Below are positions 3,705 to 39,501 of a DNA stretch of 39,501 nt, in pieces. The position numbers and the translations under genes are program-made. Under the pieces are notes generated by a model. The model saw only the letters and a program-made list of their open reading frames with translations, was not told where the DNA came from and searched no databases. Source of the DNA: a virus; IMG/VR virus record IMGVR_UViG_3300027662_000002, positions 1 to 39,501 of that record. One strand, given 5' to 3'. Every line of letters begins with the position of its first letter. The stretch's first letter is position 1.

Positions 3705-3963
3705 CCCCGCTGTCCCGCCCGGCACCTACGCCGGGGGTGCCCGTTCCCCTGTCTGCTGGGTGTACCTGTGCCCGTCCTGCGCGGGCTACGCGCCGATGAC
3801 CAGCGAGGACTACTCCGGGTTCCTGTCCGGGGCGTGCACGGGCTGCGGCTCGGTCTGCCGCGAGCTGCACAGGTTCCCCGCAGTGATCGACTCGGCTGCC
3901 GGGTGCGGGTGCCGGGGTGCGCACAAGCGGGTGACCGGCGATCTCGCGGCGGTGCGGCGGTGA
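3697..3963 (+). CDS. Zinc-ribbon-like protein
   Basis: The 88-residue protein has a Cys-Pro-Ser-Cys pair near residues 25-28 and a Cys-Thr-Gly-Cys pair about 22 residues later, followed by further Cys residues. This is the usual layout of a zinc ribbon. Partner and substrate are unknown. The stop overlaps GTG 3960 of the next gene (GTGA). Confidence 0.65.
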   Translation: MPDPAVPPGTYAGGARSPVCWVYLCPSCAGYAPMTSEDYSGFLSGACTGCGSVCRELHRFPAVIDSAAGCGCRGAHKRVTGDLAAVRR

Positions 3964-4148
3964 GCCGCGCATCCCGCGAGGAACGGCAGCTGGCCCGCCG
4001 TCTCCGTGAGATCGACGAGAGCAGCGTCGAGTGCCGTGAGCGCGGCCACGCCGCCTGCCTCCATGTCATGGGCCGCGAGCGGCAGAAGATCTACGACCGG
4101 CAGGCCGAACTCAGATCCGGCCGCGCAGGGAGTGGTGATGATGGCTGA
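3960..4148 (+). CDS. Small charged helical protein, 62 aa
   Basis: I chose GTG 3960 from the GTGA overlap; the same frame is open further upstream but only as antisense or shadow sequence. The product is rich in Arg and Glu, with heptad-like spacing that suggests a short coiled coil. No family was recognised. Confidence 0.6.
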   Translation: MSRASREERQLARRLREIDESSVECRERGHAACLHVMGRERQKIYDRQAELRSGRAGSGDDG

Positions 4149-4458
4149 CCTGACCGAGCGCATAGAGGACGCCCTGCGCTGGTACGCCCGCAAGCTCGCG
4201 GCGCTCGGCGAGCTGCACGCGCCGCTGCGGATCTACGACGAGTGCGGCCACGACCATCCGGAGGACGATCCGGCCCGCGTCGACTGCCACGACTTCGCGA
4301 GCTGCGAGGAGGCGTTCCTCTACGTGACCTGCCGGCACTGCTGCGCCGGGCAGATCTGGGGCGACCAGACCGAGGAGTGTGCCAGCGAGCACGACCACGG
4401 GCCGGACAGGCCGAGGTGCCCGACAGCGGCCATCCTGGAAGGTGATGACGATGAGTGA
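4141..4458 (+). CDS. Cys/His-rich protein, 105 aa
   Basis: ATG 4141 is 8 bases after AGGGAG; an ATG at 4138 is also possible. After a helical N-terminus the protein has many Cys and His residues, including a Cys-Arg-His-Cys-Cys cluster and an acidic C-terminus. This is typical of a metal-binding accessory protein. The function is unknown. Confidence 0.65.
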   Translation: MADLTERIEDALRWYARKLAALGELHAPLRIYDECGHDHPEDDPARVDCHDFASCEEAFLYVTCRHCCAGQIWGDQTEECASEHDHGPDRPRCPTAAILEGDDDE

Positions 4459-4732
4459 TCTTGACCAGCAGCGCCGCACAGTCCGCGCCCTGGAACTGCT
4501 CGGCGGCTCCCGCGATGCGTGGGCACGCGGCGACATGGCGGAATGCGACCGGCTCCGCGCCCAGGCCGGGCAGGAGTGCGGCGAGGACACCGTGATCCTG
4601 CTGCTCGGCGGCATGCAGATCGGGGAGATACCGCAGCCCGGCGATGACGGGTGGCCGCACTACCTCGTGGCGCAGCAGGACGCGCTTGCCCGGAACGAGG
4701 AAGGCGGTACCCGCGATGACCGCCGACGCTGA
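4451..4732 (+). CDS. Hypothetical helical protein, 93 aa
   Basis: ATG 4451 overlaps the previous stop region. The N-terminal 50 residues form two likely helices; the C-terminus is charged and probably disordered. No family was recognised. The end overlaps the next gene by 17 bases. Confidence 0.65.
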   Translation: MSDLDQQRRTVRALELLGGSRDAWARGDMAECDRLRAQAGQECGEDTVILLLGGMQIGEIPQPGDDGWPHYLVAQQDALARNEEGGTRDDRRR

Positions 4733-5111
4733 CCCTGTAGCCGCCTACCTCGCGGCAGCACGGCAGCGCTGGGATACGGCAGAGAACGCTGTCTACGCGA
4801 CCCTGCTCGGCCGCGCCCAGGCTCTCACATCCCTGGCCGACGTTCCCCGGCTTCTCGCTGCCGTAGAGGCAGTGCTCGCCCGGCACGTCCGGCAGGAGCA
4901 GCCGGTGCGCTCGTACGACCTGGACCTGCGCTGCCCGGCGCACCACTGGACCACGGCGGCGGCGTCCGTCGCGGACATCCGCGACTGCCCGGACTGCACC
5001 TACCGGGAGCACCGCGTGTGCGCGAACCCGGACTGCCGCGAGCACGAGTGGCCCTGCCCCGACTACCAGGCCATCGCCACCGAACTCCTGAGAGGGGATC
5101 ACGATGGGTGA
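4716..5111 (+). CDS. Helical protein with C-terminal Cys cluster, 131 aa
   Basis: ATG 4716 is inside the previous gene. Residues 1-60 are helical. The last 60 residues carry CPAH, CPDC, C-x4-DC and CPDY segments, enough ligands for one or two zinc sites. The architecture (helical N-terminus plus zinc-binding C-terminus) occurs in many small actinophage proteins of unknown role. Confidence 0.65.
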   Translation: MTADADPVAAYLAAARQRWDTAENAVYATLLGRAQALTSLADVPRLLAAVEAVLARHVRQEQPVRSYDLDLRCPAHHWTTAAASVADIRDCPDCTYREHRVCANPDCREHEWPCPDYQAIATELLRGDHDG

Positions 5112-5349
5112 GAGCCAGATGACGAGGGACGAGGCCGCCGCCAGATTCAGGGACAGCGGCATATGCGGCGCGCTGAGCAAGACGTCCCGGAAAGGCAGCC
5201 GCTTCTTCATCTGCAGCAGCGACGCCGGCCATGACCAGTCCGCCAGGCACACCGCCTGCGATGGCCAGGGCCACGTGATCGCGCGCTGGGCGACGGAGAC
5301 CAGCCTGATCGAGATATGGCTGCCTGATGGCAGTTACCACCTTGTCTGA
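5104..5349 (+). CDS. Hypothetical protein, 81 aa
   Basis: ATG 5104 overlaps the previous stop. The protein has Cys-Gly, Cys-Ser-Ser and Cys-Asp positions and two His residues in a compact beta-rich sequence, possibly another metal site. No family was recognised. It is followed by a GGGAGG translation-start cassette at 5358-5371. Confidence 0.65.
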   Translation: MGESQMTRDEAAARFRDSGICGALSKTSRKGSRFFICSSDAGHDQSARHTACDGQGHVIARWATETSLIEIWLPDGSYHLV

Positions 5350-5368
5350 CCACGGCCGGGAGGTACCG

Positions 5369-6079
5369 GTGCCTGACGAACTGACCGCGAGACTCGGCAC
5401 CGAGAAGGCCGAGATGATCCGGCATCAGTGCCCGCGCTGCGGTGCCGAGCCGGGCCAGTGGTGCCGTAGCAAGGGCGGCAGGCGCACCCAGCACTGGCAC
5501 GTCACCCGCTGGTACGTCGCAGTCCGGGCGCGCGGTGAGACGAACCCTCTGGCAGCAGAGATGGAGCCGGTCAGCTATCACGTAGCCAGCGAGCCCCGCA
5601 CCTGGGACGAGCTTCGCGCCGATGCCGTGAAGGCGGTCATGGCTGCGGCGGCCGACTTCGGTCATGACGACATCGTGAGCGGAAGCGCCGCCGCGTTCGC
5701 CGAAGCCGTGCTTGCCGCCATCAACGAGGAGACGGTGACCAGAATGGCCGCCACGCTCGTTGATGAGGTCAGGTTCCGGTCGATGGAGATCCGCGCCGGC
5801 CGTCTTGAGATGACCGGCATCGATGCCCGCGAGATCGCCGCGACATGGGTCGGCGCGGCACGGGAGCTGACGAAAGGCGCGGAGAACTACTCGGAAACCA
5901 GGATGCAGTTCCTTGATCACGAACGTGAGCAGGTCTACGCGTTCACGGTCCAGAAGGTAGGCAAGCGCACGCCGCATGAGATGCGGCGGCAGGCCGAGGC
6001 AGAGCGGGATGAAGCGCTGGCCGAGGTTCAGCGGCTAACAGGAACTGGCCGGGAGGTGCCCGATGGCGACGGTAGCTGA
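5369..6079 (+). CDS. Phage zinc-finger-domain protein, 236 aa
   Basis: The N-terminus holds CPRCGAEPGQWC followed by a basic stretch and HWHVTRW, the pattern of the short phage zinc-binding domain seen in many actinophage proteins. Residues 60-236 are mostly helical, ending in a charged likely coiled coil. I prefer GTG 5369 because GGGAGG lies just before it in a cassette repeated at 6051 and 6295. ATG 5327, inside the previous gene, is the alternative. Nucleic-acid binding is plausible but not shown. Confidence 0.7.
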   Translation: MPDELTARLGTEKAEMIRHQCPRCGAEPGQWCRSKGGRRTQHWHVTRWYVAVRARGETNPLAAEMEPVSYHVASEPRTWDELRADAVKAVMAAAADFGHDDIVSGSAAAFAEAVLAAINEETVTRMAATLVDEVRFRSMEIRAGRLEMTGIDAREIAATWVGAARELTKGAENYSETRMQFLDHEREQVYAFTVQKVGKRTPHEMRRQAEAERDEALAEVQRLTGTGREVPDGDGS

Positions 6080-28771: not shown

Positions 28772-29069
28772 CGTCGATCCCCTCAGGCTCGGTAGCCGCC
28801 CCGCAGCGGGGACAGGCCGTGCTCCACGGCTGCCACAGCCTCGCCGGCTGGCAGGTCGTGCACCAGCGGCCGTTCTTCTTCGCGCCCGTAACGTAGACCC
28901 CGCCGTCCGCGCTCACCAGCCCGGCCGTCCCGTTGCCCGGGATGGCGTCGATGGCCTTCGCGTGGTCGTCGGAGACCGTGATCCAGCCGCCCTCGCGGGC
29001 GGCCCGGTAGTGGGTGCCGTCCTCGAGGCGCAGACCCTGGCAGCCCGGCGGCAGGTTCACGACGCGCAC
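28761..29069 (-). CDS. Protein with C-terminal zinc ribbon, 102 aa
   Basis: GTG 29069 follows GGGAGG about 8 bases upstream and overlaps the fusion gene's end. A small beta domain (residues 1-65) is followed by C-T-T-C-Q-P and C-P-R-C-G, a zinc ribbon. This type of protein is common in actinophages, often near structural genes. The role is unknown. Confidence 0.65.
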   Translation of the reverse strand: MRVVNLPPGCQGLRLEDGTHYRAAREGGWITVSDDHAKAIDAIPGNGTAGLVSADGGVYVTGAKKNGRWCTTCQPARLWQPWSTACPRCGAATEPEGIDGDS

Positions 29070-30508
29070 GGTGACCCACCTCCCGGCGGGAACGCCCGCA
29101 GCCACCCGTGCTGATGCCACAGCCGGGACCCCTCCGGGTAGTGCGGATGCCGCACCGTCTCCACTGAGTACCCGGCGGCTTCCAGGATCGCGGCGCATTC
29201 CTGCCGCAGCCCGGCGCTGTGGAACTCGGTCAGCCACGACGCCCGGCCGGCCGCCAGGACACCCGCGGCGCCGCGCAGCACAGCCGCCTCATGGCCCTCG
29301 GTGTCCACCTTCACCAGGTCCGGCAGGCCCTCGGCCGCCGCGATCTCGTCCAGCGTCAGGCACGGCACGGCGACCTGCTCCGCGCCGGCGATGTCATCGC
29401 GCTCCCACACCTCGTGCCCGGGAGAGGTCAGCTGCGCGCCGGACAGGAACAGCGTCACCTTCCCCGCGTGGTCGGAGATGGCGACCTGCCGCACGTCCGC
29501 CCCTGGCACCGCGGCAGCCGCCGCGTAGCTCTCGGGCCACGGCTCGAACGACACGACGCGCGAGTACCGGGACGCCATGAACGGGATCGACTCGCCGCGG
29601 TGCGCGCCCACGTCGAACGCCAGTGCGCCGGACAGGCCGTCCCACAGCGCCGCGCCGCCCGGGTCGGTCACCGGGGGCGCCGGCGCTGCGGTCACCGGCG
29701 CGACCGGGGGCACGGACTCATCCGTGACGAGGCGGTAGGCCACCTTCCCGCGCCGGGCGCGGAACGTGGCGGTCTGCGTCTGCGCGAACCACGCCGGGTC
29801 GGAGCTTCCGGCCCAGCCCTCGTGCTGGCCGGTGTTCTGGGACCGCGACGCGTCCGGGACCAGGCACCTCATACCGTACTCCGGCAGGATCCGCAGCTGG
29901 ACGTTCCAGTCGTACCCGGAGTCCATCGGGCCGCCGGAGTCGCACTCCCAGTCCCAGTGCGGCTCCAGGAAATGCTCCCACCGCTCGCGCCACGTCCCCC
30001 AGATCCACGGGTTGAAGTACGGCACCAGCCGGATGTTGCGCGGGTCGGCGGCGGGGTCCTGCGGCGGCGGCGGGTTGTCCCAGGCCTGCCCGTGCCGGTT
30101 GTGCGCCAGCGCGGCCAGCACGTCCGGCATCCCCGCGAACTGGTCCCGTGCCCACGCCATGTACGCGAGCACGTCGTCGGAGACGGCGACGTCCTCCTCG
30201 CCGGACACCACGAACCCGATGCCCGGGTCGTCCCTGAAGATCGCTGAGATGGCCTCGCCGATGGCGCGGTGCGGGCCGTTCGACAGCACCGCCCGGTGGG
30301 CCTGCGGCAGCACTTCCAGCGGGACGGGGAAGTGCGGGCGCATCCTGGTGATCACGTCCGACATCGCGGCGGTCCGGTCGGTCCGGCCCAGGGCGATCAC
30401 GAACCGGGCCGGGGGGCAGATGGCGCAGGCTTTCGCCCAGGACTCCAGGACCGGCTCAAGGTAGAAGGGTCGTCTCCACGCCGTGAGCATAATCGCCGTC
30501 TTGTTCAA
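29057..30508 (-). CDS. Glycosyltransferase-FkbM methyltransferase fusion
   Basis: Residues 1 to about 285 form a GT-A-type glycosyltransferase: KTAIMLTAWRRPFYLEPVL start, a V-S-G-E-E-D-V segment as the likely metal site, and a Trp-rich acceptor part (W-G-T-W-R-E-R-W). After a Pro/Ala linker, residues about 315-470 are an FkbM-type methyltransferase: F-D-V-G-A-H-R-G, V-S-F-E-P-W-P, V-K-V-D-T-E-G-H-E. Such enzymes add a sugar and O-methylate it. TTG 30508 follows AGGAGG; ATG 30490 is an alternative but would cut the first strand. Likely acts on phage or host surface glycans. Confidence 0.8.
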   Translation of the reverse strand: MNKTAIMLTAWRRPFYLEPVLESWAKACAICPPARFVIALGRTDRTAAMSDVITRMRPHFPVPLEVLPQAHRAVLSNGPHRAIGEAISAIFRDDPGIGFVVSGEEDVAVSDDVLAYMAWARDQFAGMPDVLAALAHNRHGQAWDNPPPPQDPAADPRNIRLVPYFNPWIWGTWRERWEHFLEPHWDWECDSGGPMDSGYDWNVQLRILPEYGMRCLVPDASRSQNTGQHEGWAGSSDPAWFAQTQTATFRARRGKVAYRLVTDESVPPVAPVTAAPAPPVTDPGGAALWDGLSGALAFDVGAHRGESIPFMASRYSRVVSFEPWPESYAAAAAVPGADVRQVAISDHAGKVTLFLSGAQLTSPGHEVWERDDIAGAEQVAVPCLTLDEIAAAEGLPDLVKVDTEGHEAAVLRGAAGVLAAGRASWLTEFHSAGLRQECAAILEAAGYSVETVRHPHYPEGSRLWHQHGWLRAFPPGGGSPCAS

Positions 30509-30518
30509 CAAGCGCCTC

Positions 30519-30752
30519 CTACTGGCCGTTTCCGAACCCGAAGGCGCTGGCGGGTGCCGCAGCATGGGGTGCCCACCTGCGCTCGGTCCCCGCTGCCGTG
30601 TTGTTGATCTCCGTCTTGGCGGCCTGCTGCTGCGGGTCGCGGCAGGCGATGCGGACCACCGTGCCGAGCGCGGACCAGAACGTCATCCACTCGTCCTCGT
30701 CCAGTTTCGCGGCCACGTCAGCTAGCTCGGGCCAGGCCGGAAGCGCGGTCAT
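30519..30752 (-). CDS. Small hypothetical protein, 77 aa
   Basis: Starts MTALPAWPELADVAAKLDEDEW from ATG 30752, which lies in the left copy of the 42-bp direct repeat. A longer frame to 30839 only crosses the inserted antitoxin promoter. Without the insertion this gene would follow the GT17 stop by 4 bases, so it was originally coupled to it. No family was recognised. Confidence 0.65.
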   Translation of the reverse strand: MTALPAWPELADVAAKLDEDEWMTFWSALGTVVRIACRDPQQQAAKTEINNTAAGTERRWAPHAAAPASAFGFGNGQ

Positions 30753-30782
30753 GCGCTCAAGTATGCCCGCGCGGCCTGCGCC
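30741..30782. repeat. 42-bp direct repeat, left copy
   Basis: Identical to 31134-31175 over 42 bases. It contains the start of the 77-aa gene (-) and a copy of the last codons of the GT17 gene. The two copies flank a 351-bp segment carrying the antitoxin gene. Confidence 0.95.
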
Positions 30783-30796
30783 GGGCATAACATGTG

Positions 30797-30825
30797 TTGC
30801 CAGCGCGTTCCAGCTAACGTACAAT
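30797..30825 (+). promoter_or_regulatory. Sigma-70-like promoter of the yefM-like gene
   Basis: TTGCCA (30797-30802), a 17-base spacer and TACAAT (30820-30825) are close to the vegetative consensus. The -10 box is inside the palindrome at 30817-30836, fitting autorepression. Confidence 0.65.
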
Positions 30826-30836
30826 TTCCTGTACGT
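30817..30836. promoter_or_regulatory. YefM-type operator palindrome
   Basis: ACGTACA-ATTTCC-TGTACGT is a perfect 7-bp inverted repeat over the -10 box, 17 bases before the TTG start. YefM of E. coli binds palindromes built on a TGTACA core, so this is a good autoregulatory site. Confidence 0.7.
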
Positions 30837-30853
30837 CAAGAGCAGGCGTGTGG

Positions 30854-31108
30854 TTGAAGACCATAACCTACAGCGAGTCTCGGGCGCGATACGCCGAGAC
30901 GCTGAACTCAGTCGTCGAGGACCGCGAGGAGGTCATCGTGACCCGCGCCGGGCATGACCCGGTCGTGATCGTCGCGCTGGACGACTATCAGTCTCTGCGG
31001 GAGACCGCCTACCTGCTCAGGAGCCCGCCCAACGCCCGCAGGCTGCTGGCGTCGATCGACCGGCTGGAGAACGGGGGCGGGGCGGAGCACGAGCTGGCCG
31101 ACCCGTGA
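30854..31108 (+). CDS. yefM: YefM/Phd-family antitoxin
   Basis: The sequence K-T-I-T-Y-S-E-S-R-A-R-Y-A-E-T-L, V-I-V-T-R-A-G-H-D-P-V-V-I-V and the L-R-E-T-A-Y-L-L-R-S-P helix are diagnostic of YefM. It binds DNA through its N-terminus and neutralises the YoeB mRNA-cleaving toxin through its C-terminus. TTG 30854 is preferred (the family starts near K-T-I-T-Y); GTG 30848 is the alternative. It has its own promoter and operator. The toxin gene starts in a GTGA overlap but ends after 9 codons, so this is an orphan antitoxin. Confidence 0.9.
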   Translation: MKTITYSESRARYAETLNSVVEDREEVIVTRAGHDPVVIVALDDYQSLRETAYLLRSPPNARRLLASIDRLENGGGAEHELADP

Positions 31109-31134
31109 AGCTCGTCTGGGACGAATCTGCCTAA
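31105..31134 (+). pseudogene. Remnant of yoeB toxin gene
   Basis: GTG 31105 overlaps the yefM stop and encodes V-K-L-V-W-D-E-S-A, the start of YoeB-type toxins, then meets TAA at the point where the 42-bp direct repeat begins. The rest of the toxin (about 75 residues) is missing. Confidence 0.75.
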
Positions 31135-31175
31135 AGCGCGGTCATGCGCTCAAGTATGCCCGCGCGGCCTGCGCC
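31134..31175. repeat. 42-bp direct repeat, right copy
   Basis: Identical to 30741-30782. On the minus strand it contains the true end of the GT17 gene (W-R-R-P-R-G-H-T, stop) and a dead 4-codon copy of the start of the 77-aa gene. Confidence 0.95.
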
Positions 31176-31926
31176 ACTCTTCCGGGCACCGCCGCTCGCG
31201 GATCATCTTCGGCCACGTCTGATCCACCTCAACCGGAACCACCGGGAGATGGCCCTCGCCATTGCATCCCGTGCGCCAGCGCTCCCCGCTCGCGATCAGG
31301 TCACCTTCGGTTGTATCAAGCAGTTCAACATGACATGTGGCGGTTACCAGTTTCTCCCGCTGCCATTCGGGTCCGCCGGTCCAGCTAAAATGCCATCCGC
31401 CATCAGCGAGTACCGGATAGGAGTTCCTGCTGTCGCGCACGGCCGCCAGCGAGCCGCCGTGTCCGCGCAGGCAGGAGACCGTCGCGGCCACGCAAGTGGG
31501 CGGGATCAGGGACTGCGGGACTTCCCAGTCAACCGCGAACAAGGTCGTTCTCATTCTTGCCGAGATAGCGCCCGGGCCATTCCAGGAAAGCAATTCCGGC
31601 GACGGGATCTCATCGACATCACCGATGATCACAATATCGGTATCGTCAGCCCGCGCATCAATGACCGGCCACGCCTGGTCACGCTGGTAATGCTCGCGGC
31701 CCCACGGCGGCAGGTCCGGCAGGTCCGCGACCACATGGATGATCCGGTCAGCCCACGGCGCGAATCGGTCGGCGTTCTCCTGGTAGCACAGCGGCTTGGG
31801 CACCCCGCGATGGGTCTGCGTCGCTTCAGCGATCACGTGGTGAGCCGGCCAGCCCTGCGTCTCCTCCAGCCGCATCTGAAGCATCGGAAGCTCGTCCCGG
31901 AACATCACCGGCAGCCAGATCGTCAC
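31150..31926 (-). CDS. GT17-family glycosyltransferase
   Basis: The 258-residue protein has the family pattern: F-R-D-E-L-P-M-L-Q-M-R-L at the start, V-I-A-E-A-T-Q-T-H-R-G-V-P-K-P-L, then I-G-D-V-D-E-I-P-S-P-E as the metal/donor site, and a Gly/Trp-rich acceptor part. Founding members transfer N-acetylglucosamine to mannose on glycoproteins; bacterial and phage members have unknown acceptors. GTG 31926 overlaps the 37-aa gene (GTGA). It likely acts with the other glycosyltransferases of this cassette. Confidence 0.8.
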   Translation of the reverse strand: MTIWLPVMFRDELPMLQMRLEETQGWPAHHVIAEATQTHRGVPKPLCYQENADRFAPWADRIIHVVADLPDLPPWGREHYQRDQAWPVIDARADDTDIVIIGDVDEIPSPELLSWNGPGAISARMRTTLFAVDWEVPQSLIPPTCVAATVSCLRGHGGSLAAVRDSRNSYPVLADGGWHFSWTGGPEWQREKLVTATCHVELLDTTEGDLIASGERWRTGCNGEGHLPVVPVEVDQTWPKMIRERRCPEEWRRPRGHT

Positions 31927-32036
31927 CGGCCGTCATCCCGTGGCAGCCGGGACTGGTCCGGGCCGCCCGGGCGGCCCGCGAGCAGGAACACCAGCCGCAG
32001 GTACAGCCAGTCTAGCAGGCGGTCCCGGATCGTCAC
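31923..32036 (-). CDS. 37-aa membrane microprotein in the glycosylation cassette
   Basis: A frame from GTG 32036 to TGA 31923-31925, joined by GTGA overlaps to the genes on both sides. It encodes an amphipathic/hydrophobic segment (LLDWLYLRLVFLLAG) followed by a polar tail. One short membrane helix is possible, so it might anchor a glycosyltransferase. The double overlap is strong evidence of translation; the function is unknown. Confidence 0.6.
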   Translation of the reverse strand: MTIRDRLLDWLYLRLVFLLAGRPGGPDQSRLPRDDGR

Positions 32037-33019
32037 CCGAACAGGCTAGCCCAGTCCAGCATCGCCGACCCGAGACGCCGCCAGTACCCGGGCGGGGCCG
32101 GGACCGCGCACGCGCCCACGACGCCGGCGAGTTCCCGGTAGCACTCCGCCACGGACTCGCCTTCCAGGCGGGCGGAGGCGATCAGGGGCCACAGCCTCTC
32201 GTGCGCGGCCATGCCCGGCGCCTCAAGTTCCGCGTTGCGCCGGGGGTCCGACGCCCGGGAGTGCCGCACCGACGGGGAGCCCGAGGTGACCGCGTAGCCG
32301 AGATGGTCGCAGATCCGCTTGGCGAGCAGGCCGGCCCAGATGTCGTCGAACCGGTCGAAGCCGAACCGGTCCCCGGCGTCGTCCTGGCCCATGAGCAGCA
32401 TGTACATCGCCGGGGTCATCTCGCGGCGGAACGCCAGGTTCATCACGCACATCGGGAACATGGCCCCGGTGGGGACCGGTCCGCGTTCCCGCGCCGGCGG
32501 CAGCCGGAAGTCGGGGTTGGCCAGCTGGGTGACGCCGTCCAGGTCCGGGACCTGTGACCACAGCCCGTGGTGAATCATGACCGGGCGCTTCGCCTCGCGG
32601 ACGCCGTAGGGGAAGCCGCGCGGGTGCAGCCCGCCGATCGTGCTCCACCACGCGTCCGAGGGCGCGGCCCAGGCTAGGTTGCCCTCGATCCGGGCAAGGT
32701 AGGTGCCGCGCCGGGCGTCCTCGGGGTAGCAGTCGTCGTCCAGGGTCCAGATGACGTCCGCGCCGCCGTGGTACGCCAGCCAGAAGCCGTAGGAGCGGAC
32801 GGCTGAGGTGCGGCGCGGGATGATCCGTGCCAGGTCCCCGAGATCCCGCTCTATGTCATCCCAGGCGTAGTGCTCGCAGCCGGCCGGGAGGCTGAACGTG
32901 CGCTCCGGGTTGTCCTCCACGACGATGACCCTTGCGCCGTCCAGGTCGTCTTTCCACTCGTGCAGGAACCTGCGGGCGCAGTCCTCCCGGATCGTCGGGA
33001 CAACGACGGCGGTGCTCAC
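32033..33019 (-). CDS. RGP/UDP-arabinopyranose mutase-like protein (GT75)
   Basis: The 328-residue protein aligns by eye with plant reversibly glycosylated polypeptides: V-V-P-T-I-R-E, I-V-V-E-D-N-P, R-R-T-S-A-V-R-S-Y-G-F, T-L-D-D-D-C-Y-P (metal site), P-R-G-F-P-Y-G-V-R-E, H-H-G-L-W, P-M-C-V-M-N-L-A-F, F-D-D-I-W-A-G and I-C-D-H-L-G. Plant members convert UDP-arabinopyranose to UDP-arabinofuranose and are self-glycosylated on the Arg of the R-G-x-P segment, which is present. GTG 33019 overlaps the previous stop. It may supply a furanose donor to neighbouring enzymes or act as a transferase. Confidence 0.8.
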   Translation of the reverse strand: MSTAVVVPTIREDCARRFLHEWKDDLDGARVIVVEDNPERTFSLPAGCEHYAWDDIERDLGDLARIIPRRTSAVRSYGFWLAYHGGADVIWTLDDDCYPEDARRGTYLARIEGNLAWAAPSDAWWSTIGGLHPRGFPYGVREAKRPVMIHHGLWSQVPDLDGVTQLANPDFRLPPARERGPVPTGAMFPMCVMNLAFRREMTPAMYMLLMGQDDAGDRFGFDRFDDIWAGLLAKRICDHLGYAVTSGSPSVRHSRASDPRRNAELEAPGMAAHERLWPLIASARLEGESVAECYRELAGVVGACAVPAPPGYWRRLGSAMLDWASLFG

Positions 33020-33693
33020 AGGTGCTTCCCGCTGGCCTCGAGCCGCAGCCACCGGCTGGACCGGTACGCCGGCAGCCCGTCCCCCAGCCCCGGCAGCAGC
33101 GCCGGCCGCAGCCCCGTCAGCCGCAGCACGTACGGCTGGGACACCTGGTCCTGCGTCGACCACAGGTCCGTCTCGGCCTGCCACCGCCGGCCCATGTCCC
33201 GGACCTGCGCGGTGTGGACCCGGGCGATCGCCGACGTGGACCACAGCCCCCAGCGCTCCGGGTGGCCCCTGGTCCGGTACCAGGCGGCCTGCTCGGCGAT
33301 CGGCTCGCCGGCGTACTTCGGGATGCCCGGCGACACCGCCGCCTCATCGAACAGGCACGTCCGGTCGCTGTGCGGGAACTGCGCCAGCGGCCTCGCGCAA
33401 GCCATCACATCCGTGGCGAACGACGGGGACAGGACACGGTAGGACCCGTCGATCCAGATGCTCGCCGGGGCGTCCGTATACAGCCACGGGCGGAGCTTCG
33501 GCTTCTTCGCCGCCCGCATCGGGTCCATCCCCGGGTGCGGCTCGCGGATCACGTGCCAGCCCAGGTAGCCGTCCGGGACCTGCTCGTCGTCGGTGACCAG
33601 GATCCACTCGACATCGGCGCCGTCCTGCGGCAGCACCGGCTTGATCACGTCGTAGTTACCGTAGTTCGCGCTGATCACCGCGATGTCAGCCAT
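33016..33693 (-). CDS. DUF616-type (TOD1/MUCI70-like) glycosyltransferase
   Basis: The 225-residue protein starts A-V-I-S-A-N-Y-G-N-Y-D, then has W-I-L-V-T-D-D-E, G-W-H-V-I, R-A-A-K-K-P-K-L-R-P and S-I-W-I-D-G-S-Y as the donor/metal site. This order matches the DUF616 glycosyltransferase-like family. ATG 33693 overlaps the methyltransferase gene by 8 bases. Donor and acceptor are unknown. Confidence 0.7.
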   Translation of the reverse strand: MADIAVISANYGNYDVIKPVLPQDGADVEWILVTDDEQVPDGYLGWHVIREPHPGMDPMRAAKKPKLRPWLYTDAPASIWIDGSYRVLSPSFATDVMACARPLAQFPHSDRTCLFDEAAVSPGIPKYAGEPIAEQAAWYRTRGHPERWGLWSTSAIARVHTAQVRDMGRRWQAETDLWSTQDQVSQPYVLRLTGLRPALLPGLGDGLPAYRSSRWLRLEASGKHL

Positions 33694-34222
33694 TGGGCCG
33701 CGCGATCTCGCCGAGGCCGTACTGGCCGCCGTGCTCGGCCCACGTCCGGCCGGTCTCCGCGCAGAACGCGTCCAGCGCCTCCCGCACCTGCCACGGCCCT
33801 CCCGGCGGGTCGCCGAGGATCGTGTCGTGCAGCAGCACCGTGCCGCCCGCCGCGACCAGCGGCACGAACCTCCTGAGCTCGGCCAGGGTGTGGTCGTAGG
33901 CGTGGGACGTGTCGATGAACAGCACGCCGAACATCCGGTCCGGCAGCGGGATGGCCATGTCGTCGCCCTGGGTGAACGTCCACAGGCCGCAGGAGTACCA
34001 GTCATCCGGCACGTCCGGCTGGTTCACGTCAGCCGACCAGACGTGGCCGCCGGATACCTGCGCCCCGGCCAGCCACGCCGACGTGGAGTTCCCGCCCCGC
34101 ACGCCGAGCTCCAGCACCGCAGCGCCGGGCCTTGAAGCGGCCTCGTCATGGAACCGCGGCATGCAGTACTGCACGTCCGACCACGCGGCGAGCCGCGCCA
34201 GGTAGTCATCGCGGAGCGTCAT
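33686..34222 (-). CDS. SAM-dependent methyltransferase, class I
   Basis: The 178-residue protein has V-L-E-L-G-V-R-G-G-N-S-T (SAM-binding motif I), V-W-S-A-D-V-N (motif II) and F-I-D-T-S-H-A-Y-D-H-T followed by G-G-T-V-L-L-H-D-T, the pattern of the Methyltransf_24/CmcI-like group. Within a sugar cassette it probably O-methylates a glycan. ATG 34222 overlaps the glycosyltransferase stop. Confidence 0.8.
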   Translation of the reverse strand: MTLRDDYLARLAAWSDVQYCMPRFHDEAASRPGAAVLELGVRGGNSTSAWLAGAQVSGGHVWSADVNQPDVPDDWYSCGLWTFTQGDDMAIPLPDRMFGVLFIDTSHAYDHTLAELRRFVPLVAAGGTVLLHDTILGDPPGGPWQVREALDAFCAETGRTWAEHGGQYGLGEIARPNG

Positions 34223-34904
34223 GCACTTTCCTGACGGTCTCGCTGTCGATGGCCCGCTGATGCTCCCGCCAGGCGAAGAACGCCCTCTGGTCGGCGTCCC
34301 ACGAAGCGTAGGCGTCGGCGTACGTCGCGTCGTTGTCCCGGCCCGTCACCGAGGGGTGCAGGTGCTCGATGACCACGTCCGGCAGCAGGTACAGGCACCC
34401 GGCGTCCTTCCCCAGGTCCTCCCAGACGTTATCGGCATAAAAATGGCTTATGCCCGGAAGGCACATCCACCCGAGCGCCGTGACGATCTCGCTGGAGATC
34501 ACCGGGGCGGTCACCATGATCTGCCCATGCTGATTGCGGGGGTTCAGGTCGTCGCCGTAGGCGATACCGGGTCCGTTCTCGTCCAGCGCTCCCAGAAGTT
34601 TCGCGTCCCAGCCCGGCGTGCGCGGCTGGTGATCGTCGCCGAGGGAGGCCAGCGCCCGGTACTCCCCGGCGAACATCATCGCCAGCCTGCTGGTCCACTC
34701 CGGCATGCCGAGTCGCGCGCCGGTCAGCCAGAACACGCGCTCGCGGCCCTCCAGCGCCCGGTAGCCCTCCAGCGACGGGTCGTCCTCGTCCAGGCCCACC
34801 ACGACATCCGTCTGTGCCTCGGCCAGGCCCAGGGCCGCGTCCAGCATCGCCGCGAGCCGGTGCGGCCTGCCCCGCGACGGGACGATCACCAGCAGGTCAC
34901 GCAT
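34206..34904 (-). CDS. GT-A fold glycosyltransferase, 232 aa
   Basis: Starts L-L-V-I-V-P-S-R-G-R-P-H-R-L, has V-V-V-G-L-D-E-D-D-P and S-L-G-D-D-H-Q-P-R-T-P-G-W-D as the metal/donor site, and a C-terminal H-L-H-P segment. This is the GT2-like layout seen in many actinophage glycosyltransferases. ATG 34904 overlaps the epimerase end by 8 bases. The acceptor is unknown; phage virion proteins are candidates. Confidence 0.75.
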   Translation of the reverse strand: MRDLLVIVPSRGRPHRLAAMLDAALGLAEAQTDVVVGLDEDDPSLEGYRALEGRERVFWLTGARLGMPEWTSRLAMMFAGEYRALASLGDDHQPRTPGWDAKLLGALDENGPGIAYGDDLNPRNQHGQIMVTAPVISSEIVTALGWMCLPGISHFYADNVWEDLGKDAGCLYLLPDVVIEHLHPSVTGRDNDATYADAYASWDADQRAFFAWREHQRAIDSETVRKVHDAPR

Positions 34905-35874
34905 GCAGTTCCGCCTTTACCTGATCGAAGGTCCAGGCGTAGGTCCGCTCCATGCCCTCGCGGAAGCTCACCTGCGGCTTCCATCCGACTTCGGCCGCGA
35001 TGCGGCTGTCATCGGACGGCCTGCCGCCCACGCCCACCGGGCCGTCCGTGTACTTCCGCCCCACCCGGTAGCCCGCGATGTCCTCGATCACCGACACCAG
35101 CTCGTCGATCGACGAGGTCTTCGGGCAGCCGACGTTCAGCGGCTGGCCGTAGTCCCCCGCCGTGATCGCCAGCGTCGCCGCGACCGCGTCATCGACGTAG
35201 GTGAAGGTCCGGCGGGCGGTGCCGTCGCCCCACACCTCGATCTCGGCCGCGCCCGTGAGCTTCGCGACGGCGACCTTGCGGCACAGCGCGGTCGGCGCCT
35301 TCTCCCGGCCTCCCCTGTACCAGCCCGCCGGGCCGTAGACCGAGAAGTAGCGCCCGATGCGGACTTCCAGGCCGAAGTCCTCCGCGAACGCCAGGAACAG
35401 CTTCTCGGCGAACAGCTTCTCCCACCCGTAGCCCTGCTCCGGGTCGATGGCGTTGGCCGCCAGGTCGTCCTCCCGCAGCGGCGGGGTGTCCGGGCTCACC
35501 TGGATGTGCAGCGGATACGCGCAGGAACTGCTCGCGAAGTAGATCCTCGCCCCGGCGACGTACGCGGCCCTGGCCATCGTCGCGTCGGCCAGGATGTTCA
35601 GCATGCAGTCGGCGTGGTGATAGGAGATGTAGCCCATGCCGCCGGAATCGGCCGCGAGATGGTAGATCACATCGCAGCCGTCGGCGGCGCGCTGCGCGCT
35701 CCCGCGCTGCGACAGGTCGCAGCGATCCCGGTTGTCCGCATCCGGGTGGACCTGCTTCCACTCGCCCAGCGGCCGGATGTCCGCCGCACGGACCTCATCA
35801 CCGTGATCCAGCAGGGCCCTGATCAGGTGGCCGCCGATGAAACCGCCGCCTCCGGTGATCAGGGCGCGCATCAT
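34897..35874 (-). CDS. NAD-dependent sugar-nucleotide epimerase/dehydratase
   Basis: The 325-residue extended SDR has G-G-G-G-F-I-G-G-H-L (NAD site), D-S-G-G-M-G-Y-I like GDP-mannose 3,5-epimerases, S-S-S-C-A-Y and Y-G-W-E-K (catalytic Tyr and Lys), and V-N-V/L-N-V-G-type substrate segments near the end. It probably makes an altered nucleotide sugar for the adjoining transferases. ATG 35874 (or 35871) follows GGGAGG and overlaps the GT4 stop. The exact substrate cannot be read from the sequence. Confidence 0.85.
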   Translation of the reverse strand: MMRALITGGGGFIGGHLIRALLDHGDEVRAADIRPLGEWKQVHPDADNRDRCDLSQRGSAQRAADGCDVIYHLAADSGGMGYISYHHADCMLNILADATMARAAYVAGARIYFASSSCAYPLHIQVSPDTPPLREDDLAANAIDPEQGYGWEKLFAEKLFLAFAEDFGLEVRIGRYFSVYGPAGWYRGGREKAPTALCRKVAVAKLTGAAEIEVWGDGTARRTFTYVDDAVAATLAITAGDYGQPLNVGCPKTSSIDELVSVIEDIAGYRVGRKYTDGPVGVGGRPSDDSRIAAEVGWKPQVSFREGMERTYAWTFDQVKAELHA

Positions 35875-37011
35875 GATCCTCCCGGTATCAGCTCTTTGAG
35901 CGCGACGGCCCAGTAATCCGCGTACACGCGGTCAGCATCGTAGCGCTGGGCGAAGGCGACGGCCTGCTCCCGCTTCCCGGCGGCCTTCTCGTATGCCTGC
36001 TCGTACGCCTGCGTGATGGATGAGATGAACGGAACGCGCCAGAAAGCGTCGTGGCCCCTGTTGAACGCCGGCTGGCCCTGCACCAGCCACCCGGCGCCGC
36101 ACAGCTCCGTCATCGACGAGCAGTCCGTCACCGCCACCGGCGTGCCCACGGCGAGGGACTGCAGGATGGCCAGCCCGAACCCCTCCCCGTAGGAGCAGTT
36201 GGAGCACAGGTCCAGGAGGCCGTGCCAGTCCGCCATCTGGGACTCCGGGATCAGCCCGGCCGCGATCTGGTACTGGTCCCCGACCATCACCTGACGGCCG
36301 ATGCCCAGCTCGCCGATCAGCTTCGCGAGGTTCACGCCCTGCCGGGTCTGCGCCCGGGAGTGGATCAGCATCAGCGCGTCGTCGTGGCGCTTAGCGAACT
36401 GCGCGAACGCGGCGAGCTGCTCCCCGAAGCCCTTGCGGAACGGGTCCTGGTTCGCGGCGTTGATCCCGATCACGAACCGGCCGTCCATGCCCAGCGCCTG
36501 CCGGGCGGCCTTCCGGTCCGCCAGCGGCTTCCACACGGACAGATCGAGCGCGTGCGGGGCATACAGGGCGTCGTAGCCCGCGTCCCGCAGCATCGCCTCC
36601 CCAAACCGGGACATGGCTACCGGCCTGCCGGGGCCGGCGTCGAGGATCCGCCGGTCCATCGACCCCAGCGGGGAGCAGTCCACCGGCATCCAGTGCGCCA
36701 CGTTCATCCCGGCGAGCCGGGCCGGGTCCAGGATCCACGCGTCCATCAGCGTGATCAGCAGGTCGGCCCGGAAGTGCTGGTAGTGCAGCGGCAGGATGTC
36801 CTGGGAGTACGCGTCCTCGGACGAGCCGGGGTAGGTGACGACCCCGTCCGGCCCGGTGATCGGGATGCCCTGCAGCCCGTGGAACGCGGCGAAGGCCACC
36901 TCATGGCCGTTCTTGCGCAGCACGCGGGCGAGCAGGTCACCCTGCGTTCCGTAGCCAGCCCTCTAAAGAGGGGCACCAGGGCGCGTTCCCGTACACCAGT
37001 AGCCGACTCAT
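35871..37011 (-). pseudogene. GT4 glycosyltransferase broken by a 10-bp insertion
   Basis: ATG 37011 opens M-S-R-L-L-V-Y-G-N-A-P-W-C-P-S. The sense then resumes in another frame at G-Y-G-T-Q-G-D-L-L-A-R-V and runs to 35871. Removing ten bases (36957-36966) joins them as P-W-C-P-S-G-Y-G-T-Q, the usual N-terminal loop of GT4 enzymes, giving 376 residues. The C-terminal domain has S-Y-G-E-G-F-G-L-A-I-L-Q: the second Glu of the E-x7-E motif is Gln. A shortened protein could start at GTG 36923, but it would lack the first strand and loop. TTA, very rare in such genomes, occurs in the inserted bases. Confidence 0.75.
36959..36972. repeat. Palindrome created by the 10-bp insertion
   Basis: CCCTCT-AA-AGAGGG is a perfect 6-bp inverted repeat. 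The insertion (36957-36966) supplies one arm and the centre, and the other arm is original coding sequence. This fits a template-switch at a quasi-palindrome. Confidence 0.7.
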
Positions 37012-38400: not shown

Positions 38401-39396
38401 TTACGAGAACGGGGCGGAATCGCTGTTCTGGAGTCCGCCGAGGTGCGCGCTGTACATCGGGGCATGTGCGACAAGTGCCTCGAAGCATAGCAGACTATAC
38501 CTCCAGGTGACATCGATCGCGGGCCACGCCAAACTGACGTAATCCTGACATGTCGAGACTTCCCACGCATTCGCGACATTCGTCCACGACTGGGGGAGCT
38601 GGTAGGACAGGAGGGTCGCGTTCCCCTGCGGGTAGAAGGGATGCACGACCATCTTCAGGATCGACCGGGTCAGCGGGTTCTGGAACTGGGAGACGGCCGC
38701 GCCGACGGTGACGTCGCCGACCTCGCCCTGCTTGATGAACAGCTCGTAGGCGGTGCCGGTGCCCTGGGAGATGACGTCCTGGGACAGGTTCGCCAGGTCC
38801 GACCCGCTGGAGATGATCTCCGCCGGGTCGGCCTTGAACGCCCCCGGCGAGATGCCGGGGCTGTCGAACAGGGCCTTCAGCGCGGTGTAGATGGTGTTGT
38901 AGTTGAAGTGCAGGCCGACGCCGCCGTTGTAGTACCCGCCCTGCCAGCCGCTGGGATACACGCCAGCCTGCTGGGAAAGGCCGGACAGGACCGGGATGAC
39001 GCCCTCGATGCGGGTGCCCTTGCCGGTGCCGCTGTCAGCGGTCGGCTGCGTGCTCGCCGCGGGAAGCGTCCCGCCCTGCAGGGTGTACTTCACCCCGCCG
39101 CAGGTGGCCAGCAGGTAGTAGGTGGAGGAGACCAGGCCCCAGATGCTGTACTGCATCGCGCCCGCGGACGGGGCGATCGTCACGTCCACGACCTGGCCCG
39201 CGCTGACAGTCACCGCGGTGCTCCCGGAGACGGCGGTGGTGCCGAAGTAGTTCGTGGCCGCGACCAGGACATGGTCGACGGTGGTGTTCAGCGCAGTCTC
39301 GTTGCTCTGCGCGTTCCGGACGGTGCAGGTCGGGGCAGCCGGCGTCGCCAGGTTCTGCGCAGAACCGGCGATGATGGCGTACTCCTCGGCGAGCAT
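38401..39396 (-). CDS. Major capsid protein, C-terminal exon
   Basis: The 331-residue frame begins M-L-A-E-E-Y-A-I-I-A-G-S-A, a segment that lies inside, not at the start of, HK97-type actinophage capsid proteins. A beta-rich insertion follows (residues about 30-110), then a helix/strand domain (Y-N-T-I-Y-T-A-L-K-A-L-F) and a C-terminal V-V-H-P-F-Y-P-Q-G-N segment. The N-terminal third is missing. The frame is preceded by the 3' half of a group I intron, so this is exon 2; exon 1 lies beyond the window. ATG 39396 should not be the real start. Confidence 0.75.
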   Translation of the reverse strand: MLAEEYAIIAGSAQNLATPAAPTCTVRNAQSNETALNTTVDHVLVAATNYFGTTAVSGSTAVTVSAGQVVDVTIAPSAGAMQYSIWGLVSSTYYLLATCGGVKYTLQGGTLPAASTQPTADSGTGKGTRIEGVIPVLSGLSQQAGVYPSGWQGGYYNGGVGLHFNYNTIYTALKALFDSPGISPGAFKADPAEIISSGSDLANLSQDVISQGTGTAYELFIKQGEVGDVTVGAAVSQFQNPLTRSILKMVVHPFYPQGNATLLSYQLPQSWTNVANAWEVSTCQDYVSLAWPAIDVTWRYSLLCFEALVAHAPMYSAHLGGLQNSDSAPFS

Positions 39397-39501
39397 CCGA
39401 TTTGTTACTCTCTGCCCCTTTTGGCAGAGGGACGGGTCATTTCTGCCCGTCTCTTACGCTTTCGTCGTAAGACCCGACTATATCTTCACCCGCGTGGGGT
39501 G
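39397..39501 (-). ncRNA. Group I self-splicing intron, 3' half
   Basis: Read on the minus strand it has, in order: P8 hairpin CACCC/GGGTG (39487-39501), then AAGATATAGTC (39476-39486), which is the conserved J8/7 plus P7' of group I introns. Then come P9-type hairpins: TCTTACG/CGTAAGA with a GAAA loop (39452-39472), GACGGG/CCCGTC (39431-39451) and CTCTGCC/GGCAGAG (39410-39429). It ends with a G next to the capsid frame (39397-39398). The A/T-richer composition differs from the surroundings. The 5' half and any homing endonuclease are outside the window. Confidence 0.8.

Follow-up and report, generated by a model that had tools for sequence, protein, structure and literature searches.

The window analysed here is a complete IMG/VR record of 39,501 bases, with ends of no known nature, and at one end it carries a short series of hairpins directly upstream of a minus-strand reading frame. 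The question raised by this locus is whether the hairpins belong to a group I intron and, if so, which gene the intron interrupts and how that gene continues past the end of the record. The explanation that best accounts for the data, and which we hold with little doubt, is that the window breaks off inside the last of four group I introns that interrupt the major capsid protein gene of a tailed phage with high G+C and, probably, an actinobacterial host.

An intron remnant at the end of the window

The hairpins occupy positions 39398-39501 of the minus strand and make up the last 104 nt of a group I intron that is 323 nt long. This 3′ part comprises the P8 hairpin CACCC-CACGC-GGGTG (39487-39501), the pairs of which covary over 14 related introns; J8/7 (AAGAT) followed by the P7 3′ strand (ATAGTC) at 39476-39486, where P7 covaries; and the hairpins P9 (39471-39453), P9.1 (39451-39431) and P9.2 (39429-39410), of which P9 and P9.1 covary. 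It closes with the omega G, the last intron base, at 39398. P8, J8/7, the P7 3′ strand and the three P9-type hairpins had all been reported in a preliminary description of the DNA, and each was located. The partner of the P7 3′ strand, GACTAT, lies outside the window and is seen in a longer contig described below.

The 3′ splice site falls between 39398 and 39397, as set by comparison with an intron-lacking contig (L006). Base 39397 belongs to the exon, where it completes codon 282, split AT/G, and the intron part is therefore 39398-39501 and not, as first described, 39397-39501. The last exon of the gene, exon 5, extends over 38401-39397 on the minus strand and encodes residue 283 to the stop codon. 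The frame had been said to lack its N-terminal third; the missing portion is larger, amounting to the first 282 of approximately 620 residues (46%).

Taken alone, the window gives a weak group I match in Rfam that is truncated by the contig end (13.6 bits, E=1.2), and no match at the gathering threshold. The 3′-end motif of the intron family is present in a single copy in the window, versus none in 1.3 Mb of shuffled sequence, and within the loci examined (approximately 7-9 kb on each side of the capsid gene) it is confined to the interior or the ends of capsid genes. A match to the LOOT RNA over P6-P9.1 was weak, fell below the cut-off for that model and was rejected, the intron hairpins accounting for the signal. 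A nucleotide search of the window against named phages returned no match.

Structure of the complete intron

The 331-amino-acid window frame was used as a query and returned four contigs with an identical protein. One of these, L005 (from a 31-kb contig), is 99.99% identical to the window over 7.1 kb and runs on past its end. The full intron corresponds to L005 5677-5999, 323 nt in length, and the 219 nt at its 5′ end that lie beyond the window, including the 5′ half of the group I core that had been sought there, are present at L005 5677-5895. Against the Rfam group I model RF00028 the complete intron scores 48.2 bits with E=2e-10 over model positions 1-253, the full length of the model; this is just under the curated 50-bit cut-off, which relatives from the same intron family exceed. 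The P3-P9 core, J8/7 and P7 are held in common with the model, and an assignment originally made by eye from the core is borne out by the full-length match.

Helices P2, P3 (CUCCG/CGGAG), P4, P5, P7 (GACUAU/AUAGUC), P8, P9, P9.1 and P9.2 were all found in the L005 intron. The P1 helix, GGAGAU/GUCUCC, has six pairs with a U.G pair at the splice site and is equalled by 2% of shuffled exons; P1 is short in several introns of the set, and for most it is no better than with shuffled exons. The intron ends in G and the 5′ exon in U, as the comparison with L006 demonstrates, and there is no endonuclease open reading frame (ORF) in its 323 nt.

For the analysis of covariation an alignment (A3) was made of 14 related introns taken from other capsid genes. 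RNAalifold predicted 68 pairs, with compensatory change in 49 of them, and the covariation spans P2 to P9.1, including the P3 and P7 pseudoknot. With P7 included in pseudoknotted form, paired cells made up 96.7%, versus 72.5% in shuffled alignments, and the covariation was 0.715 versus 0.216, with none of 500 shuffles as high. Sliding the helix partners against each other destroys the signal. The core helices covary with the exception of P4, which is nearly invariant and thus uninformative in this respect. The window therefore ends inside a group I intron, confirmed well beyond chance, and the intron is an ordinary member of its class residing in an essential gene. Guanosine-dependent self-splicing is predicted from these features.

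Four introns and five exons in one gene

The intron boundaries are defined exactly by contig L006, which matches L005 without a difference over the 1154 nt that end at base 5676, and at 3800 of 3802 nt from base 6000 on, with nothing in between. It is without precisely the 323 nt, and the capsid frame stays open across the join. In the same manner L003 and L004 lack exactly the first two introns of the gene while retaining the 29-nt exon between them. These contigs represent either intron-less alleles or spliced RNA. The sole base private to L006 (position 1177, corresponding to L005 6022) lies 23 nt from the intron site, and this single site hints at an allele that may have arisen by co-conversion rather than at RNA.

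The remainder of the gene was delineated with a spliced aligner written for the analysis, which requires a donor U and an acceptor G and uses a profile of uninterrupted homologues. The capsid gene beyond the window end is not uninterrupted: exon 1, previously sought there, was found with three further introns between it and the window. Intron 1 (L005 2675-4019, 1345 nt) contains an ORF of 359 amino acids, intron 2 (4049-4317, 269 nt) belongs to a second intron family, intron 3 (4606-5649, 1044 nt) contains an ORF of 275 amino acids, and intron 4 (5677-5999, 323 nt) is the one at the window end. All four follow the rule of a 5′ exon ending in U and an intron ending in G. In the family of intron 2 (the type-B alignment) compensatory change is seen in 57 of 71 pairs. 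The exons measure 522, 29, 288, 27 and 997 nt; joined in silico they give a full-length protein of approximately 620 residues, ending in SAPFS, that is collinear with uninterrupted homologues such as those of L013 and L019.

The expectation that a homing endonuclease might be encoded here was correct for the gene but not for the 323-nt intron: of the other three introns, two carry ORFs of DUF559 type. These ORFs (L005 2846-3925 and 4699-5526) encode an endonuclease-like domain followed by a helix-turn-helix (HTH) segment, with DUF559 domains detected in the products of intron 1 (E=1e-16) and intron 3 (E=2e-4), together with zinc-ribbon-like motifs. By inspection of the sequence both are placed in P8. 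The 359-residue product resembles the solved structure 3hrl. The combination of DUF559 with homing endonucleases was not found among the top literature matches.

Identity of the interrupted gene and the host

The window protein matches phrog_13692, a family for which the function is unknown (E=4e-29), as does a homologue in the Streptomyces contig L172 (E=1e-91). In phage genomes the major capsid gene usually sits directly after the portal and protease genes. The L172 homologue directly follows genes for a portal (E=6.5e-79) and a head maturation protease, which is in keeping with the original proposal that the major capsid gene is interrupted; the genes upstream of the capsid gene in L005 match no recognised family. 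An AlphaFold model of the capsid homologue, considered for the HK97 fold of tailed-phage major capsid proteins, is of low confidence (pLDDT 55); its fold matches are weak and include the capsid of SPO1 and capsid proteins from phages. A direct sequence search of the capsid protein in the PDB gave only a chance antibody match. Because the model is of low confidence and the fold matches are weak, the assignment is drawn mainly from gene order; on this evidence the intron-split gene is very likely that of the major capsid protein.

With a G+C content of 70%, homologues of the capsid protein in a contig of Streptomyces and in a metagenome-assembled Actinomycetes genome, and a tape-measure segment similar to those of mycobacteriophages, the window phage is likely to have an actinobacterial host. 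Between the capsid and tail genes (29060-36923, minus strand) there is a run of sugar-related and methyltransferase genes, which includes an FkbM methyltransferase, an NAD-dependent epimerase and glycosyltransferase-like ORFs.

Intron-rich relatives and insertion sites

Among the 80 capsid loci nearest by the intron-free middle of the protein, the spliced aligner identified introns in 34, namely 28 of 67 newly fetched loci together with L003, L004, L006, L010, L011 and L063, several of them near-duplicates. A hand tally over all scans gives approximately 28 distinct intron-bearing capsid genes with approximately 65 introns. The richest is L028, a 132-kb contig, with nine introns of ordinary size, six of which match RF00028 at E 2e-10 or better, and exons that include ones of 19, 53, 54, 59 and 67 nt. 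Six introns are present in L092 (where internal exons measure 16 and 50 nt and the final coding exon 8 nt), five in L133, and three each in L104, L142 and L153, those of L153 occupying the same first three sites as in L005. A 6392-nt 'intron' proposed by the aligner at the N-terminus of L148 was spurious and was discarded. In every intron-bearing gene examined in detail the spliced exons are open, with no stop.

The 27 distinct insertion sites fall into three clusters, at residues 149-176, 247-286 and 569-623, with one further site at residue 84 and none between residues 286 and 569. Local protein conservation at these sites is 0.84, versus 0.686 +/- 0.035 at random, a value that was reached in none of 5000 draws; the insertions thus concentrate where the protein is most conserved. 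Two well-supported families, each occurring at many sites, account for the small introns, and many introns of the set, in families B and C, are found by the RF00028 model in no instance. Introns group by family and not by phage, ruling out that those of one phage are each other's nearest relatives. At residue 161 of the L010 gene an intron (L010 3354-3623) is nested in the residue-176 family of L005, L007, L011 and L012, which looks like a move between positions in the gene. Both sites end in CCGU, a weak match that fits reverse splicing directed by the guide sequence.

Proposed splicing pathway and alternative explanations

We infer that the introns are spliced in the cell. The RNA of the 323-nt intron would fold into a group I ribozyme, and guanosine would attack after the exon U that is paired with the guide-sequence G in P1; the freed 5′ exon would then attack after the terminal G. 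Joining of the 522-, 29-, 288-, 27- and 997-nt exons would yield one mRNA and a capsid protein of approximately 620 residues. Homing is likewise inferred: introns 1 and 3, with genes for DUF559-type, Vsr-like endonucleases in P8, probably home into intron-less alleles. The endonuclease-free 323-nt intron probably spreads by co-conversion or with an endonuclease supplied in trans, and the presence of related introns at new sites probably reflects spread by reverse splicing.

An alternative is that the intron is degenerate, a relic in a pseudogene, or that each segment is translated on its own, giving two or more capsid fragments. The window frame does have a start codon, an ATG at 39396, that opens an ORF of 331 amino acids, and four introns are a heavy load for the most highly expressed gene of a phage. 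However, the core helices are all kept by compensatory change across 14 introns, spliced exons are free of stops in each intron-bearing gene examined in detail, and the protein is one continuous chain in intron-less homologues; moreover, internal exons as small as 16-29 nt are too short to encode proteins by themselves. We consider both variants of this explanation highly improbable.

Even less weight is given to an assembly artefact, in which a chimeric join at the window end would have attached an intron belonging elsewhere. The contig does end inside the intron, and L064 similarly starts next to an intron end, but three independent contigs (L003, L004 and L005) run through the same intron at 99.9-100% identity, and the same intron families are found in the same gene of related phages. 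An intein or a group II intron would be a third possibility, inteins being common in phage structural genes. The insert, however, is not open in the capsid frame and contains no splicing domain, and the group I model is matched over its whole length, such that this option is refuted by the structure and is given practically no credence. Splicing of four group I introns from a single capsid transcript is the preferred reading.

Comparison with known systems

The view that a capsid intron is unusual in a high-G+C actinophage needs tempering, as mycobacteriophage LittleE provides a verified precedent: its major capsid gene contains a group I intron for which RT-PCR and protein sequencing showed splicing (Pope et al. 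2013, PMC3706429). In both phages exon 1 ends in U, the intron ends in G and an endonuclease gene lies inside. The likeness is one of intron features and not of compared capsid proteins, and LittleE has one intron of approximately 819 bp with a LAGLIDADG-like ORF, whereas the present gene has four (up to nine in relatives), ORFs of DUF559 type and, unlike LittleE, exons of 16-29 nt.

The available text on a Zeta-group crAss-like phage (cMAG OLRF01000054) describes a capsid gene in five fragments, most of the separators having group I intron-type domains, as here (Yutin et al. 2021, PMC7886860). This gut Bacteroidetes phage differs in phage order and host, five fragments is the maximum in that account, and the boundaries, micro-exons and intron-less alleles given here are absent from its description of OLRF01000054. 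Several group I introns per phage gene are also seen in Twort orf142, with three introns and exon skipping (Landthaler and Shub 1999, as cited in PMC11878797), and in Bastillevirinae DNA polymerase and terminase genes, with up to three (PMC11878797); unlike here, these are low-G+C phages with three introns at most, and the gene is not that of the capsid.

That phage capsid genes can hold group I introns is thus already known, and what is new here is their density and the micro-exons. The four introns of this gene, the nine of its richest relative and the exons of 16-29 nt exceed what is described for the LittleE, crAss-like and Bastillevirinae cases. To our knowledge, from a literature survey that is incomplete, a gene with nine introns would be the densest self-splicing gene in a bacterial virus. 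The capsid gene is the most strongly expressed gene of a phage, so each intron needs to be removed efficiently and in its proper turn, and coding pieces of 16-29 nt are near the minimum for holding a downstream P1 and an upstream P10 pairing. The family supplies naturally occurring alleles with and without introns, close intron relatives at different sites and numerous homologues that are uninterrupted, making it directly testable how introns reach new sites, avoid exon skipping and target conserved codons. Gene callers tear such genes apart, and capsid-based surveys of soil phages will therefore miss or misread them.

A core-less mini-intron in two relatives

Two of the relatives have a mini-intron that lacks a catalytic core; it is followed by an exon of 23 nt and then by a complete group I intron (L108 7344-7716 and L028 3768-4149). 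The mini-intron measures 53 nt in L108 and 60 nt in L028, and a second assembly, L027, has the L028 arrangement at the same place; a motif search of viral contigs found the motif only in these two phages (L028/L027 and L108), the exons of which are 71% identical. With the 53-nt piece left in, the capsid frame of L108 meets a stop at residue 160; taking it out gives a perfect protein. A guide helix (GACCU/GGGGUC) and a P2-like hairpin belong to the mini-intron itself, and long helices tie it to the 23-nt exon and the following intron; comparison of the two phages shows several paired changes in these helices. In L028 the intron after the 23-nt exon would need to end in a terminal A at 4149 rather than in G, which favours decay at that site. 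A single ribozyme core might remove both introns by using two 5′ recognition modules in turn, a scheme that we put forward tentatively and regard as rather doubtful. It is possible on this scheme that the introns of the intron-rich relatives are not all spliced independently, for which the two examples provide a lead.
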